The translations under genes and the position numbers were made by a program. From Kutzneria sp. (lineage in GTDB: Bacteria > Actinomycetota > Actinomycetes > Mycobacteriales > Pseudonocardiaceae), in assembly GCA_019239965.1 (NCBI GenBank), contig JAFAZC010000075.1, positions 1 to 64,000 on the forward strand: DNA of 64,000 nt. Direction: 5' to 3'. Shown in pieces: positions 2,563-56,826 of this stretch. Each line of letters opens with the position of its first letter. Position 1 is the first letter of the stretch. The notes beneath the pieces are model-generated. The model was not told the DNA's origin. It saw only the letters and a program-made list of their open reading frames with translations, and ran no database searches.

Positions 2563-3537
2563 TCAGCCGAGTCGTCGAATTCTGTATTCGTCACTCGGCT
2601 TTCCGCTGAGCAGAAGGTCGAGTCGACCAGTGAGCACATAGGTTCCGCAGGCGCCCCGCGCTATTGTGGTCGGCGCCGGATCCGGCCATGCCAATGAGTT
2701 CGCTACGGTCGCGGTTCGCCAATGGTCCGTTGAATCAAGCGTCACCACCCTGTTGGCGCTGGTGTTGTCGATTTCCTGAATGGTGGAGGGCCCGTCGAGG
2801 AGCAGTCCATCGGGAGCACCGATCGGGGCGTCCACCGCGACCCGGGCCACGGTGCGCGAACCGTCCAGCGCCACTCGGTAGAGCGCGCGGGCGGAGGACT
2901 GGGCGACGAGCAGGAAGCCGTCGGGGTTCCAGACGATCCCATTGGCACCATTGCCTTTGCCGACCGGGACCAGCTGGTCGTCACGGACCAGTATGGACGG
3001 TGCTCCCGTCAGCGACACCTCGTACACCGCGCCGCTGACAGAGTCGGTGACGAAGGCGCTGCCGTCGGGGCCGACCGTGACGTCGTTGCCGAAGTGCCCG
3101 TGCCCGGTGTCCAGCGAGCCGAGATCGACATACGCGATCCGCTGTCCGGACGCCAGGTCGTAGATGCCGAGCCCGGCGGTCTTTCCGTTGGTCTGCGGTG
3201 AGGTCCTGTCCGCGATGCCGATGTCGCCGTTCACCACGAGGATTCGGTTCCTCGGTGTGTCGACGGTGATTCCCATGGTGGTGATGAGCGCCGGATCGGA
3301 CACCAGTGTGTTCACGGAGCCGTCGAGATTCACGATGCTCACGGTTCCGTGCTTGACCGATCCGACAAGGAAACGTTCCCTAGTTGGATCGTAGGCGATT
3401 CCCTCGGGATGCAGTGTGGGGGCGGAACCGACCATCGAATCCGGGTAGCAGGACTTCTCCGCACGTGCTGGAGAGGAAGGCAAGAGTGCGGTGGCGGAGA
3501 TGGCCGCCAATACAATCGTCATTAATCGAATTGTCAT
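2563..3537 (-). CDS. Secreted SMP-30/NHL-type beta-propeller protein
   Basis: This is a 324-residue protein with a signal peptide: Met-Thr-Ile-Arg start, hydrophobic core, and a cleavage-like Ala-Arg-Ala near residue 26. The mature part has repeated short modules containing Gly-Ile-x-Tyr/Val, Asp-Gly-Ser and Asn-Arg-Ile, as expected for a six-bladed SMP-30/gluconolactonase-like propeller. The frame runs further upstream to 3906, but the segment before the signal peptide is low-complexity and overlaps the divergent MFS gene, so I start at 3537. Relatives are annotated as SMP-30/gluconolactonase/LRE proteins; no substrate can be read from the sequence. It is convergent with smc, with a 26-nt gap. 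Confidence 0.72.
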   Translation of the reverse strand: MTIRLMTIVLAAISATALLPSSPARAEKSCYPDSMVGSAPTLHPEGIAYDPTRERFLVGSVKHGTVSIVNLDGSVNTLVSDPALITTMGITVDTPRNRILVVNGDIGIADRTSPQTNGKTAGLGIYDLASGQRIAYVDLGSLDTGHGHFGNDVTVGPDGSAFVTDSVSGAVYEVSLTGAPSILVRDDQLVPVGKGNGANGIVWNPDGFLLVAQSSARALYRVALDGSRTVARVAVDAPIGAPDGLLLDGPSTIQEIDNTSANRVVTLDSTDHWRTATVANSLAWPDPAPTTIARGACGTYVLTGRLDLLLSGKPSDEYRIRRLG

Positions 3538-50565: not shown

Positions 50566-52374
50566 GTGCGAAGGATATTCGGCCTCGTGCTCGCCGTCCC
50601 CCTGCTCGTCTCGTTCGCCGGCTGTGGCCTGTTCCACAGCGGGCCGAGTTCACAGGACGTCGCCGGGACGTTCCTCAAGGACTTCGGCGGCGGTGATACG
50701 GCCGGCGCCGCGGCACTCACCGACGACTCGGCCGCCGCCAAGACGATGTTGGACAAGGTGAGATCGGCGCTCAAGCCTGCGGGCGCGGATCTCCATCCCG
50801 ATCTGACCGCTGATGGAGTCGATCGTTCCGGTGACAGCGTGGACGAGCCGTTCCAGGCTTCCTGGGACCTCGGCCAGGGACGCACCTGGAGCTATACCGG
50901 ACACGTTGCAGTCAAGCGGATCGACGGGGACTGGAAGGTGCACTGGCAGCCGTCGGACATCCACCCCAAGCTGGCCGCCGAGCAGACCATCGCCCTGCAG
51001 GTGGAGCAGCCCGACCCGGCGCCGGTGTTGGACCGGGACGGCGTTGCGCTACTCGCCCCGACTCCGGTGATCACGGTCGTCGTCGATCGCAAGCAGGCAG
51101 GCGACCTCGGCGCGGTGGCCGGCAGCCTCGCCGACGCGCTGTCCCGGTTCGATGCGACCATCACGCCTCAGTCGATCATTGACGGCGCCACGAAAACCCC
51201 CGACGGGCAGGGCTACCCGGTGATCAGCCTGCGGGACTCGGACTACCAGCAGGTGCGCGCCCAGATCCATGAGTTGCCGGGGGTGAGCTTCGCCAGCCAG
51301 ACCCAGTTGCTGGCCAAGGACAAGGCACTCGGGCCGCAGCTGCTGGCCACCGTCAAGGCAGCGGTCCAGGCGAAGGTCGCCGGCTCGGCCGGCTGGCGGG
51401 TGATCACCCAGGACGCGGGCGGCAACGAGGTCAACGAGTTGACCGCCAAGCCCGCCAAGCCGGCCGGGTCGACCTCCGTGACACTGAGCACGGCCGTCCA
51501 GGCGGCGGCCCAGGCGGCCATCGCCTCCGCTCCGCAGGCCGCCGCCATCGTGGCGATGCAGCCGTCCACCGGGGAGTTGCTCGCGGTCGCGCAGAACGCT
51601 CCCGCCGACACGCAGGGCCTGATCGCGCTGAGCGGGCAGTTCCCGCCCGGTTCCACGTTCAAGATCGTCACCGCCGCCGCGACGCTCGCCGCGGGCAAGG
51701 CGACCATCGACTCCCCGCAGGCCTGCCCCGGCACGGTGACCATCGAGGGCCGGCTGATTCCCAACGAGGACAAGTTCGACCTCGGTACGGTCCCGCTGCG
51801 CACCGCCTTCGCCCAGTCGTGCAACACGACCTTCTCGCAGCTGGCGGTGAATCTGCCCAACGACGCGTTGACCACCATGGCCAAGCAGCTCGGTGTCGGC
51901 GCCGATTTCACCGTTCCCGGCGTGACCACGGTGACCGGGTCCGTTCCGGCGGCGACCGGCACCATCGAGCGGGCCGAGGACGGATTCGGGCAGGGCAAGG
52001 ACCAGGTGAGTCCGTTCGGTATGGCGCTGGCCGTCAGCACCGTCGTGAAGGGGACGATTCCGACGCCGAGCCTGCTGCGCGGCACCCAGACGAAGGTCAA
52101 CACGCCGTCGCAGCGGCCGGTGTCGCCCGCGGTGCTGGACTCGCTCCGGCAGATGATGCGGGCGGTGGTCACCGACGGAACGGCCCGTGCCATCAGGGAC
52201 ACTCCGGATGTGGCCGGCAAGACGGGCACCGCACAGTTCGGGGACGGCACCCAGTCGCACGGTTGGTTCGTGGGATACCGGGGTGATCTCGCCTTCGCCG
52301 TGCTGCTCACCGCCGCGGGCAGTTCGACGCCGGCGGTCACCGCGGCCGGCACCTTCCTGCGCGCACTGCGCTGA
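50566..52374 (+). CDS. Lipoprotein penicillin-binding protein (class B transpeptidase)
   Basis: This 602-residue exported protein has lipobox FAGC with Cys20. An NTF2-like domain (MecA_N type, about 35-140) and a dimerisation region precede the transpeptidase domain: Ser363 in GSTFKIV, SCN at 418-420 and KTG at 552-554. It should cross-link peptidoglycan. Orthologs (PBP-lipo, Rv2864c type) lie near ispG in mycobacteria and influence division and beta-lactam response. The mRNA is probably leaderless. Confidence 0.93.
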
Positions 52375-52477
52375 GTGCCGGGTTCGCGGCGGACGAGGTC
52401 GGCCTGCCGACGGTGTCTCCTGGTATCCCATAACGACGGTTCCACGCAGAACACGGCAGGGGAGGGGATTCGCCGAG

Positions 52478-54013
52478 TTGGGTGGGGCACTGCTGGTCGC
52501 CGGGACGACCTCGGACGCGGGCAAGAGTGTCCTCGTCGCCGGAATCTGTCGGTGGCTGGCGCGCCGCGGGGTCCGGGTCGCCCCGTTCAAGGCGCAGAAC
52601 ATGTCCAACAACTCGGTCGTCACCGTCGAGGGCGGCGAGATCGGCCGGGCACAGGCACTCCAGGCCGCCGCCGCAGGTCTGGAGCCGAGCGTTCGGTTCA
52701 ACCCTGTCCTGCTCAAACCGAGTGGTGACCGCAGATCCCAGATCGTGCTGCTCGGCAGGGCGGTGGGCGAGGTCAGTGCCGTGTCCTACCGGAAGAGCAA
52801 GGCCGAATTGCTCGACACCGCCGTTTCGGTGCTCGGCGGGCTGCGCGCGGAGTTCGACGCCGTGGTCTGCGAGGGCGCGGGATCGCCCGCCGAGATCAAT
52901 CTCAGGGCCACCGACATCGCCAACCTCGGCCTCGCCAGGGCCGCCGAACTTCCAGTGATCGTGATTGGTGATATTGACCGGGGTGGGGTGTTCGCGCACC
53001 TGTTCGGCACCCTCGCCCTGCTCGACGCCGCCGACCAGGCGCTGGTCACTGGATTCGTGATCAACAAGTTTCGTGGTGACCCAGACCTGCTCGCGCCGGG
53101 ACTGCGCCAGTTGCGTGCCCTCACCGGCCGCCCCGTGTACGGCGTGCTGCCCTGGCGGGAAGAGCTCTGGCTGGACGCCGAAGACTCGCTGTCGGCGGTG
53201 GCGGACGGCGTCGTCGGCAGGCCGGCACCGCCGGCGGGGGAGCAGTGGCTGCGGGTCGCCGTGATACGGCTGCCGAGGATCTCCAATGCGACCGACGTGG
53301 AAGCACTCGCCGGCGAGCCCGGGGTGTCCGTGCGGTTCGTCACCGAGCCGTCCCGGCTGGCGGACGCCGACCTCATCGTGCTGCCCGGCTCGAAGGCGAC
53401 CGTCGCCGATCTCGGTTGGCTGCGCCGGACAGGGTTGGCCGACGCGGTCACCGCGCATGTCCGGCGAGGCATGCCGCTGCTGGGCATCTGCGGCGGTTAC
53501 CAGATGCTGGCCAGTGCCATCCATGACGACGTCGAGTCGCGGGCCGGACGGGTCGACGGCCTCGGCATTATCGACATGGAGATCGTCTTCGACGAGGTCA
53601 AGACGGTGTGCAGGCGGTCAGGAACCGCCCTCGGACACGACGTCAGCGGGTACGAGATCCATCACGGCCGTGTCCTGCGCCCGGCCGACCGGCTCGCCGC
53701 CCTGACCGAGTGTGCCGACGGCGCTTGCGAGGGGGTGGCCGGCGGCCCTGTTGTCGGCACGCACTGGCACGGTCTGCTGGAGAACGACGGATTCCGCAGG
53801 GAGATCCTTCGCTGGGCGGCACGATACTCCGGAAGGGACGGCTTCACCGTCGTGCCGGACACCTCGTTCGCGGCCGCGCGGGCAGCCCAGCTGGACCTGC
53901 TCGGCGACCTCGTCGCCGAGCATCTGGACACCGACGCCCTGTGCGGTCTGCTGGACAGGGGCGCACCCGACGGGCTTCCCGTTGTGCCCCCCGGTGCGCC
54001 CGCACCGTGCTGA
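52478..54013 (+). CDS. cobQ: Cobyric acid synthase
   Basis: This 511-residue enzyme performs four glutamine-dependent amidations of the corrin ring. The N-terminal P-loop [15 protein letters not shown] and [12 protein letters not shown] are diagnostic; the C-terminal class I glutamine amidotransferase has Cys in [10 protein letters not shown] and His in [14 protein letters not shown] 52478 is the apparent start, about ten bases after GGAGGGG; a long open frame upstream is a shadow of the PBP gene. cobN at the end of the window belongs to the same pathway. Confidence 0.93.
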
Positions 54014-54021
54014 ACCGCCGC

Positions 54022-54480
54022 CTAGCGACCGGCCGTGCTGGTGGGCGAGGCCGATCCGGTTGTGGACGCCGTCGTCGACGGCGCCGCGCCGCGGTCGGCA
54101 TCCAGGATCGCCGAGGCGACGGCGCGACCCGCGGGACCGAGTCCGTCCTGGTAGCGGCCGAGGATCTGCTGTTCCCGGGTCGGGTCGGTTCGCGTGCCCC
54201 CGGCCGCCGTGCGTATCCGCTGTATCGTCGCGGAGGCCTCGCCGCGTTGCCGGAGCAGCTCGATGATCTGCTTGTCCAGCTCGTCGATGTGCTGGCGCTG
54301 CTCGGTGATGGACGCGTTCGGGTCCGGGGTCTGCACCGGCGTCTGCCGCGAGTTGGGCTGATCGGACGCCTTCTCCAGCGACGGTGAGCAGGCCGCCGCC
54401 GCGATCATGGCCGCCCCTCCCACGGCGGCCAGTGCGGCCCGACGAGACAAGCTGCTGGTAGTGCGGACGTCCATCGACAC
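54022..54480 (-). CDS. Lipoprotein with AroQ-type chorismate mutase domain
   Basis: The protein is 152 residues. The N-terminus has a twin-arginine-like SRRAALAA and a lipobox ending in Cys31, then a Ser/Pro/Thr linker. Residues about 57-125 form a short all-helical chorismate mutase: ITEQRQHIDELDKQIIELLR, RGEASATIQRIR, AAGGTRTDPTREQQIL and GPAGRAVASAIL. The pattern fits the small AroQ-delta form like mycobacterial Rv0948c, including GGTR and the Arg-Glu pair. A Ser/Thr-rich tail ends it. Exported members of this subgroup are unusual. It is convergent with cobQ and lies downstream of the FadR-type gene. Confidence 0.8.
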   Translation of the reverse strand: MSMDVRTTSSLSRRAALAAVGGAAMIAAAACSPSLEKASDQPNSRQTPVQTPDPNASITEQRQHIDELDKQIIELLRQRGEASATIQRIRTAAGGTRTDPTREQQILGRYQDGLGPAGRAVASAILDADRGAAPSTTASTTGSASPTSTAGR

Positions 54481-54554
54481 CTCATCCTCAACGAGACCCT
54501 GGACTGGGACGCGGTTGCTGTCCTTGTTGTCTTGCAGATCGTACGGGCCTCGGC

Positions 54555-55238
54555 TCAGTGTCGATCGGCCGCGTGTCGTTCCAGCAGGTCGTCGAGGAAG
54601 ACGCTGGCCTCCCGCGCGGCGCGCTCGGAATCGCCGCCCCGGATGGCCTCGAGCAGGCCGTCGTGGGAGATCTGCTTGGCGCCGCCGGGCGTGTCCGTCA
54701 CGCCGACGGCGACACTGGCGCGGATGACTTCGGTGAGCCCTCGGTGCAGCTCGGCGAGCACGGCGTTGTGCGAGCTCTGGACGACCATCAGGTGGAAGAG
54801 GGTGTCCCGCTCGATCATCTCGGGCCAGTTCTGCCTTGCCTCGGCGGCGTTGCGCTCGTCGAGCAACTCCTCCAGGCCGCGCACGTCCTCGTCGGTGCGC
54901 CGGATGGCGGCCAACCTGGCGCCCTCCACCTCGAGCGCGCGGCGCACCTCGAGCACGTCGAGCAGTTCCTCGTCGACGAGCCGGCGAACGGCACCGGAGA
55001 GTTCACTCGTCGCCCGTACGAAGGTCCCGTCGCCCTGGCGGACCTCCAGCAGGCCGGCATGGGCCAGCGCCCTGACGGCTTCGCGGACGGTGTTGCGTCC
55101 GACGCCAAGCGCGGTGACCAGCTCGGGCTCGGCGGGAATACGGCGGCCGACCGGCCATTCTCCGGATGAGATCGCCTGTCGCATCTGCTCGATCACCTGG
55201 TCGACAAGACCAGCGCGGCGAGTGGCGGCCAACGGCAC
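54555..55238 (-). CDS. FadR-subfamily GntR transcriptional regulator
   Basis: This 227-residue protein has the GntR winged helix RIPAEPELVTALGVGRNTVR with LLEVRQGDGTFV, and an all-helical FCD effector domain carrying Asp/His metal ligands (ERDTLFHLMVVQSSHNAVL, KQISHDGLLEAI). GTG 55238 is preceded by GGGAG; the frame runs on to 55403 but has no better site. Effector probably a carboxylic acid. It may regulate the divergent-lying or downstream genes; no operator was identified. Confidence 0.9.
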   Translation of the reverse strand: MPLAATRRAGLVDQVIEQMRQAISSGEWPVGRRIPAEPELVTALGVGRNTVREAVRALAHAGLLEVRQGDGTFVRATSELSGAVRRLVDEELLDVLEVRRALEVEGARLAAIRRTDEDVRGLEELLDERNAAEARQNWPEMIERDTLFHLMVVQSSHNAVLAELHRGLTEVIRASVAVGVTDTPGGAKQISHDGLLEAIRGGDSERAAREASVFLDDLLERHAADRH

Positions 55239-55434
55239 GGTATCTCCCTTCCTCATGGATCCCGTCTCGTCGAAGGGGTCCGTCTTCGTTCCTGGCTTCG
55301 TCCCGCCCGGCATTCCCATTGCGGGGTGACCGGCAGACATGATGAACGATGTGACGCCGACCGCATACCACCGACCGCTCGAAGTGCGGCCATGGCGGGA
55401 CAAGTCCTGCTCTGACCACCCGATTGGCGGCTGC

Positions 55435-56826
55435 TCAGTCCAGCGGCAACGTGAGCAGGGCGTTCTCGACCAGCTCCGGCATGGCCGGATGGATCCAGTA
55501 CTGTCCGCGCGCCATGCTGCGCGCGTCGAGTCCGAAGCTCATCGCCTGGATCACGGGCTGGATGAGCGTCGGGGCCTGCGGGCCGATGATGTGCGCACCC
55601 AGCAGCTGACCTGTGCCCGGATCCGCGATCAGTTTGGCAAACCCCGTGGTGTCCTCCATCGCCCAGCCGTAAGCGATGTCGGCGTAGTCCTGTGTCGCGG
55701 TCACGTACCTGGTGCCGCGGGCGCGGGCCTGTCGTTCGGTGAGCCCAACCGAGGCCACCTGAGGTGAGGAGAACACCGCGTGCGGCACGAATCGGTGGTC
55801 GGACTCGACCGGTTCATCCGGGTGGAGCACGTTGTGCCGCACCACGCGTGCCTCGTGATTGGCGACATGTTTGAGCTGGTGGGCGGAGCTGAGGTCACCG
55901 AGCGCCCAGATGTCGTCGATCACCGTGCGCTGCCGCGTGTCGACGACCACTCTGCCGTCGGCGTGTGTGGTGACCCCGGTGGCGCCCACGTCGAGCAGGT
56001 CGGAGTTGGGTGTTCTGCCGACGGCGACGAGCAGGTCCTCCGCCTCGACGACGTCAGCACCGGTCGGCGTCTCCAGGTGCAGGCGGACGGCCCCAGCGGT
56101 TCGCTCGGCTCGGATCACCTTGGAGTTGAGCCGGACGTCCCACCGGTTCCCGGCCAGCTCGGTGAACCGTGCGGAGATGTCGTCGTCCTCGGCGCGCAGC
56201 AGCGCGCCGAAACGGGCCACCAGCGTCACGTCGACGCCGAAGGAGGAGAACACGTGCGCGAACTCCGATGCGACGAACCCGCTGCCCAGGATGACCATGC
56301 TCGCGGGAAGCCGGTCCAGCCGCATCACGTCGTCACTGGTGTGGAACCCGGCGTCGGTCAGGCCGGGGACGTCCGGAATGATGGGCCGTGAGCCAGCCGC
56401 GAGTACGAACCGGTCCGCGGTGATCGTCTCGCCGGTGCCGGTGTCCAGCGTCTTGGGGCCGACGAACCGGGCCAGCCCCTCGTACACGGTGACGTTGGCG
56501 TTGTCCTCGATCCGCCACCGCCGGCCGCCTGCGGAGATTGGGTCGATCCGACCGAAAATCCGGTCACGGACATCGGGCCAGCGCACCCCGTACAGCTGGG
56601 CGTCCACGCCCAGCCGTGCCCCCGCGGCGGGCGTCGCCGCGACGTCGGCGGTGTGCACGAACATCTTGGTGGGAATGCACCCCATGTTCAGGCACGTGCC
56701 GCCGAACACGCCCTTCTCGACGATCGCGACGTTCCAGTCCGCGAACTGTTCGTCGACGATCGAATTACCGGACCCGGTGCCGATGATGACTATGTCGAAG
56801 TGCCGCACAGTGTCATCCAACCGCAC
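55435..56826 (-). CDS. mtr: Mycothione reductase
   Basis: This 463-residue flavoprotein reduces mycothiol disulfide with NADPH. FAD motif DIVIIGTGSGNSIVD, redox-active disulfide GGTCLNMGCIPTK, NADPH motif VILGSGFVASEFAHVFSSFG and C-terminal His-Glu in HPAMPELVENALL identify it. Mtr, rather than glutathione or lipoamide reductase, is indicated by the N-terminal and redox blocks and the actinobacterial context (Rv2855-type position). This implies the host uses mycothiol. Confidence 0.94.
   Translation of the reverse strand: MRLDDTVRHFDIVIIGTGSGNSIVDEQFADWNVAIVEKGVFGGTCLNMGCIPTKMFVHTADVAATPAAGARLGVDAQLYGVRWPDVRDRIFGRIDPISAGGRRWRIEDNANVTVYEGLARFVGPKTLDTGTGETITADRFVLAAGSRPIIPDVPGLTDAGFHTSDDVMRLDRLPASMVILGSGFVASEFAHVFSSFGVDVTLVARFGALLRAEDDDISARFTELAGNRWDVRLNSKVIRAERTAGAVRLHLETPTGADVVEAEDLLVAVGRTPNSDLLDVGATGVTTHADGRVVVDTRQRTVIDDIWALGDLSSAHQLKHVANHEARVVRHNVLHPDEPVESDHRFVPHAVFSSPQVASVGLTERQARARGTRYVTATQDYADIAYGWAMEDTTGFAKLIADPGTGQLLGAHIIGPQAPTLIQPVIQAMSFGLDARSMARGQYWIHPAMPELVENALLTLPLD

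Follow-up and report, generated by a model that had tools for sequence, protein, structure and literature searches.

A chorismate mutase related to the AroQ-delta branch and predicted to be a lipoprotein in Kutzneria and other Pseudonocardiaceae-type genomes

Genes and features of the locus

The analyzed window is a stretch of 64,000 nucleotides from a Kutzneria sp. contig (JAFAZC010000075.1). Reading of its open reading frames confirms a minus-strand frame at exactly 54022-54480. The GTG at 54480 lies in frame upstream of an ATG at 54474, which is the likelier start; an identical MDVR start is found in all seven Kutzneria copies of the gene. Active-site, loop and docking-tail positions (R18 to G89, with residue 55) are given below in the numbering of the AroQ-delta chorismate mutase (CM) of Mycobacterium tuberculosis (MtCM). 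The following features are relevant:

52478-54013, plus strand: cobyric acid synthase-like gene (cobQ), convergent with the CM gene, ending 8 bp from its stop; the syntenic anchor
54022-54474, minus strand: gene of the predicted lipoprotein CM, 150 aa, ATG start (MDVR)
54391-54474, minus strand: predicted signal peptide, residues 1-28, with twin-arginine-like SRRAAL (by eye)
54388-54390, minus strand: lipobox cysteine Cys29 (Cys31 counted from the GTG), invariant in the alignment
54310-54387, minus strand: Pro/Ser/Thr-rich linker, residues 30-55 (sequence; low model confidence)
54088-54309, minus strand: AroQ CM domain, residues 56-129, three helices (profiles, PDB matches, alignment, model)
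54184-54186, minus strand: Asp97, the MtCM Val55 position (alignment), just before predicted helix H2
54025-54087, minus strand: low-complexity Ala/Ser/Thr/Pro tail where MtCM has its docking tail for DAHP synthase (RLGH)
54537-54543, minus strand: TACGATC, promoter-like, preceding the CM gene and shared by 8 of 14 members
54555-55250, minus strand: GntR/FCD (FadR-type) regulator, upstream of the CM gene on the same strand, about 80 bp apart

Signal peptides and lipoboxes were judged by eye. A twin-arginine-like signal and a lipobox cysteine had been proposed in a sequence-only reading of the window, and both are present, Cys31 of that reading being Cys29 from the likelier start. The Tat-type S-R-R-x-x-L motif appears in the sequence of the window protein as SRRAAL, followed by the lipobox AAAC instead of the classical LxxC. 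RRAAL is common to the seven Kutzneria copies, G023 and G034; the S-R-R-x-x-L motif is absent from G405, G012 and G138-G140, and four members outside Kutzneria have Sec-type lipoboxes (LSGC, MTGC twice, and LSAC). The lipobox cysteine is invariant in the 12 lipoproteins of alignment A1 at identities down to 39%, and the two copies with a dead active site that were left out of that alignment (L072, L073) have it too, which makes 14 of 14. Such conservation indicates that this cysteine is not a chance occurrence. Thus, the window protein is predicted to be a Tat-type lipoprotein, which would be exported and lipidated.

Domain family, active site and docking tail

The CM domain scores above the cut-offs of three profiles: 42.8 bits with Pfam CM_2 (cut-off 27, E 6.1e-11), 87 bits with NF005894, the NCBIfam profile for chorismate mutase (cut-off 73, E 6.8e-25), and 61.6 bits with TIGR01808, also from NCBIfam (cut-off 52.15). 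When six relatives were also scanned with NF005894, L077, L078 and L081 passed the cut-off of 73, and L071 (65.5), L074 (70.8) and the dead copy L072 (35.7) fell below it. The top PDB sequence matches are AroQ-delta enzymes (5mpv, E 5.2e-12; 2qbv, E 5.2e-11). An AlphaFold2 model built from five sequences is of low confidence (mean pLDDT 59.7, pTM 0.31, linker below 50 up to residue 44) and has three helices, at 56-90, 98-112 and 114-127. In a Foldseek search this model was led to 2w1a (2w1a_C), 2vkl, 2qbv and 5hud, with AroQ-delta structures best; all 21 matches with E <1 are CMs or CM domains, including 1ybz, titled hypothetical in Foldseek and chorismate mutase in the PDB sequence search. 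The delta-like CM domain seen in the sequence-only reading is therefore upheld by the profile search it had suggested and by the closest structures, and profiles, PDB sequence matches and Foldseek all place the domain within the CM fold.

AroQ-delta enzymes are normally cytoplasmic and need DAHP synthase for full activity. The window protein has neither the docking tail nor, judging by its signal, the cytoplasmic location. It also differs from the AroQ-gamma type with its six-helix protomer and C-terminal disulfide, having 150 aa, three predicted helices and a single cysteine, that of the lipobox. Because both the docking tail and the cytoplasmic location fail, we file the lipoprotein outside AroQ-delta proper: by sequence it is an AroQ CM related to the AroQ-delta branch, not a member sensu stricto.

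Window residues R60, R77, R88, R100, E101 and R128-G129 correspond to R18, R35, R46, R58, E59 and R85-G86 of MtCM. Twelve of the 14 lipoproteins, the window protein among them, retain R18, R35, R46, R58 and E59, and these 12 also have Asp55. Thus, the active site, whose arginines could have been lost, is intact in the window protein, but it is really lost in two of the 14 members. R85-G86, described as part of the basic machinery or structure (PMC4281200), is kept in 10 of 14, with Arg85 missing also from G006 and G034. The C-terminal residues by which AroQ-delta contacts DAHP synthase (PMC4281200) have no counterpart here, the docking tail LG[H/R] being found in 0 of 14. In the family's housekeeping-type cytosolic copies, V55 and L/M88-G89 are each present in 30 of 30, mostly best matches and not a random sample.

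Asp55 is known from directed evolution of MtCM. There, V55D raised kcat/Km 12-fold, T52P 6-fold and both together 22-fold; V55D was the strongest single step to partner-independent activity, Asp55 occurred in 32 of 34 selected clones, and EcCM and *MtCM, which are efficient by nature, have Pro and Asp as well (PMC7762937). Asp55 holds and orders Arg18' and Arg46 (PMC9910054). The window protein has Ile62 and, at position 52, Thr; Pro52 is seen in G023 only among the 14. Because Asp55 is present and the docking tail is missing, the lipoprotein CM probably works without DAHP synthase. In 34 other rows of the residue table, which include L005 (another CM type) and the signal-less relative L052 (Glu55), position 55 is N in 13, S in 6, E in 6, H in 4, Q in 3, V in 1 and D in 1; L120 gave no match to the domain queries and is absent from the table. 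Asp55 is not necessarily new, because Streptomyces-type AroQ mostly has N, S or H there, and once D, and others have E or Q. It may derive from a polar residue instead of Val.

Distribution, gene context and origin

The same lipoprotein occurs in 14 Pseudonocardiaceae-type genomes at a conserved site near cobQ: in all seven Kutzneria, Gandjariella (G023), G405, G034, G012 and G138-G140. In the family search, 386 of 390 genomes had a match; among the best 30 loci, which were read, 14 encode lipoproteins and 16 do not, so the count is at least 14 and more divergent ones may exist. Of 246 genomes sampled across the class, 69 had a match at E <= 1e-14, and no visible signal or lipobox was seen by eye in the N-termini of the best 29 loci besides that of the window. 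In 20 genomes without a known lipoprotein copy at this site, no CM match was obtained at E 1e-3 (0 of 20), and a GntR match was found in 9 of 20, the L165 stretch ending with its contig. Among the titles and abstracts listed in literature searches, which reached mostly papers outside subscription, none dealt with an AroQ-delta that is a lipoprotein.

The other 13 lipoprotein loci were compared together with their flanks by tblastn. Genes similar to cobQ and M24 peptidase are present in 13 of 13, and a mycothione-reductase-like gene, a GntR gene and an MFS gene in 12 of 13 each; the names cobQ and mycothione reductase are putative and were given by recognition of the sequence. In G138-G140 GntR is separated from the CM gene by an asparagine-synthase gene, and in G012 a polysaccharide deacetylase separates cobQ from the CM gene. 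The M24-peptidase and MFS genes have no match anywhere in the window, including 52374-52478 and 55250-55435. No exported prephenate-using partner was recognized near the CM gene.

The upstream regulator contains FCD (E 2.8e-22) and GntR (E 1.6e-19) domains, in agreement with its earlier description as FadR-type; it reaches no NCBIfam cut-off among the 25 matches listed of 28. Its carboxylate-sensing family had been taken as a pointer to the ligand of the CM, which is weak evidence, as in 12 of the 13 other loci the regulator gene is arranged divergently with an MFS gene. The pointer is further weakened by the conserved, promoter-like TACGATC that separates the regulator from the CM gene. All seven Kutzneria and G034 (8 of 14 members) have it 40-69 bp ahead of the CM start, and it hints at the CM gene's own promoter. 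A simple pattern scan of six genomes detected no FadR-like site between the two genes; the sole FadR-like pattern upstream falls inside the GntR coding start.

A tree was built from 76 of 79 domain rows, near-identical rows being merged and L005 left out; it rests on 75 columns only and a midpoint root. The 14 lipoproteins and the signal-less relative L052 form one group (97/87). The best-supported split in the tree (100/97) separates the lipoproteins and Streptomyces-type AroQ, a working label resting partly on the tree itself, from the family's cytosolic copies; a direct sister relation of the lipoproteins and the Streptomyces type has a support of 83/0 only. The lipoprotein gene is unlikely to be a recent duplicate of the family's housekeeping aroQ-delta, from which the 100/97 split separates it. 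The inclusion of L052 may be a long-branch join. This relative, from G016 (L081:8037-8348), has Glu55-Pro56 and lacks the tail, and its gene lies near genes that resemble those of 2-oxoacid dehydrogenase E1/E2 and of an FAD-binding monooxygenase.

The six Kutzneria genomes besides that of the window (G000) also have a cytosolic AroQ-delta. In all six, and in Gandjariella, its gene lies between pcrA and a small ORF; in G000 it is missing from this place, where about 85 bp without Ns separate the small ORF from the aligned portion of pcrA (L181, G000:C108:12001-19000, around 3319-3404). Possibly this absence is an assembly error. The G000 assembly has 4.7 Mb and is 93.8% complete; those of its congeners have 10-12 Mb. 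G000 keeps an AroH-class CM, followed by an ORF that by eye resembles cytidylate kinase, as well as prephenate dehydratase (PheA) and prephenate dehydrogenase (TyrA); therefore, cytosolic Phe and Tyr synthesis has no need of the lipoprotein. The AroH-class CM also rules out that the lipoprotein is the sole CM of this genome. Among 60 relatives, CM_2 matches that are gamma-like by their profile start position do not overlap with intact lipoprotein copies. We considered mutual exclusion of the two types and rejected it, as the numbers are too small and a gamma-like ORF, lacking a clear signal, occurs in the dead-copy genome G002.

The two dead lipoprotein CMs belong to Kutzneria genomes G002 and G005 (L072:7995-8405 and L073:8004-8414). 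Both have Gln in place of R18 and R46, Asp in place of E59 and Ser in place of R85 and lack the H1-H2 loop, yet their frame, signal and lipobox are preserved. Catalysis is dispensable in this branch, because the two copies have lost the active site. For the domain, four pairs of intact copies (G001/G003, G001/G006, G003/G006 and G000/G004) give dN/dS values of 0.24-0.42, intact meaning R18, R35, R46, R58 and E59 present, since G006 lacks R85. The ratio is 0.81-1.04 in three pairs of intact and dead copies and 0.63 between the two dead ones. These values, pairwise counts on a short gene and a small sample, suggest relaxed constraint on the dead branch. By their residues, the G002 and G005 lipoproteins are natural pseudoenzymes.

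Proposed function and alternative explanations

We consider it fairly probable that the protein is an exported, membrane-tethered, self-sufficient CM that turns extracellular chorismate into prephenate. Export would proceed by the Tat-type signal (Sec-type in some relatives), and lipidated Cys29 would tether the CM to the cytoplasmic membrane on its outer side. There the domain would most likely dimerize in the intertwined AroQ manner, with none of the active-site arginines missing. Asp at the MtCM Val55 position would cap helix H2 and order Arg18' and Arg46; we propose that the absent docking tail is not needed because Asp55 orders the active site. Leakage from the cell, or lysis of neighbouring cells, would supply the chorismate. 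A more elaborate scenario, which we offer tentatively, is that a partner-free AroQ similar to the laboratory-evolved one was lipid-anchored outside the cell as a scavenger of chorismate or as a receiver of it as a cue, and that one Kutzneria branch then turned it into a dead, exported, ligand-binding lipoprotein.

It is unlikely, although the dead copies lend the idea some weight, that the exported domain in general is a pseudoenzyme-like binding or structural module that senses or holds a ligand, with catalysis incidental. G002 and G005 have kept signal, lipobox and frame after losing the active site, GntR and a divergent MFS gene lie near the CM gene in 12 of 13 other loci, and no partner enzyme is recognized nearby. 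Nevertheless, the four arginines, Glu59 and Asp55 are retained in 12 of 14 members, and the rise of dN/dS from intact pairs to intact/dead pairs is what relaxed constraint after a loss predicts. Much less probable is a cryptic or leaky signal on a cytosolic housekeeping CM, at least in G000. The idea draws on the housekeeping aroQ-delta, gone from G000 and present at its site in six of six congeners, but the AroH-class CM makes the lipoprotein unnecessary for this task, and conservation of the lipobox extends throughout the lineage, also to the members with a Sec-type signal.

An even slighter chance belongs to a different chorismate-like ligand outside the cell, for instance isochorismate. 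The sequence-only reading had suggested a changed ligand or role, and the unusual location, as well as loop positions 52-57 and the tail, unlike those of housekeeping AroQ-delta, would agree with a new ligand. Yet the four active-site arginines and Glu59 are unchanged, and the NCBIfam profiles for isochorismate lyase and CM-like proteins score only 18.5 bits against 126 and 12.4 bits against 73.35. With catalytic residues intact and conserved in 12 of 14, Asp55 present and the docking tail gone, the data do not support a changed ligand. A changed role is likely, because we know of nothing outside the cell that would provide chorismate or use prephenate.

The preferred reading, an exported self-sufficient CM, can be compared with several known systems. 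With M. tuberculosis AroQ-delta (Rv0948c; 2QBV, 2W1A) the lipoprotein shares the fold, R18/R35/R46/R58/E59, R85-G86 and the start of the GGTR loop; it differs by the added signal, by Asp instead of V55 and by a Ser/Thr/Pro/Ala tail instead of RLGH, and no DAHP-synthase partner is expected for it outside the cell. Asp55, Ile62 and a changed docking tail are shared with the laboratory-evolved autonomous MtCM (V55D, T52P; N-s4.15, 5MPV), whereas the lipoprotein is natural, has Thr52 and is predicted to be exported. Streptomyces-type cytosolic AroQ-delta lies on the same side of the 100/97 split, has Gln43 and lacks the LG[H/R] tail; it shows no signal or lipobox by eye in the N-termini read and has mostly N, S or H at position 55. 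AroQ-gamma *MtCM (Rv1885c) is likewise an exported CM of unsettled purpose, with Asp at the equivalent loop position (PMC9910054), but each of its protomers contains six helices and there is a C-terminal disulfide (PMC10520331), where the lipoprotein has a three-helix domain and a predicted lipid anchor. The exported bacterial CMs described in the latter source are AroQ-gamma, several of them from pathogens and their purpose unsettled; exported fusions of CM with cyclohexadienyl dehydratase also belong to the gamma group, and one idea put forward there is the sensing of chorismate from lysed bacteria (PMC10520331).

The lipoprotein, which comes from actinomycetes, would thus differ in kind from these exported CMs, and its natural dead copies provide built-in controls. 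Directed evolution yields a prediction for this family, namely that a natural AroQ with Asp55 and without the tail would be active without DAHP synthase.
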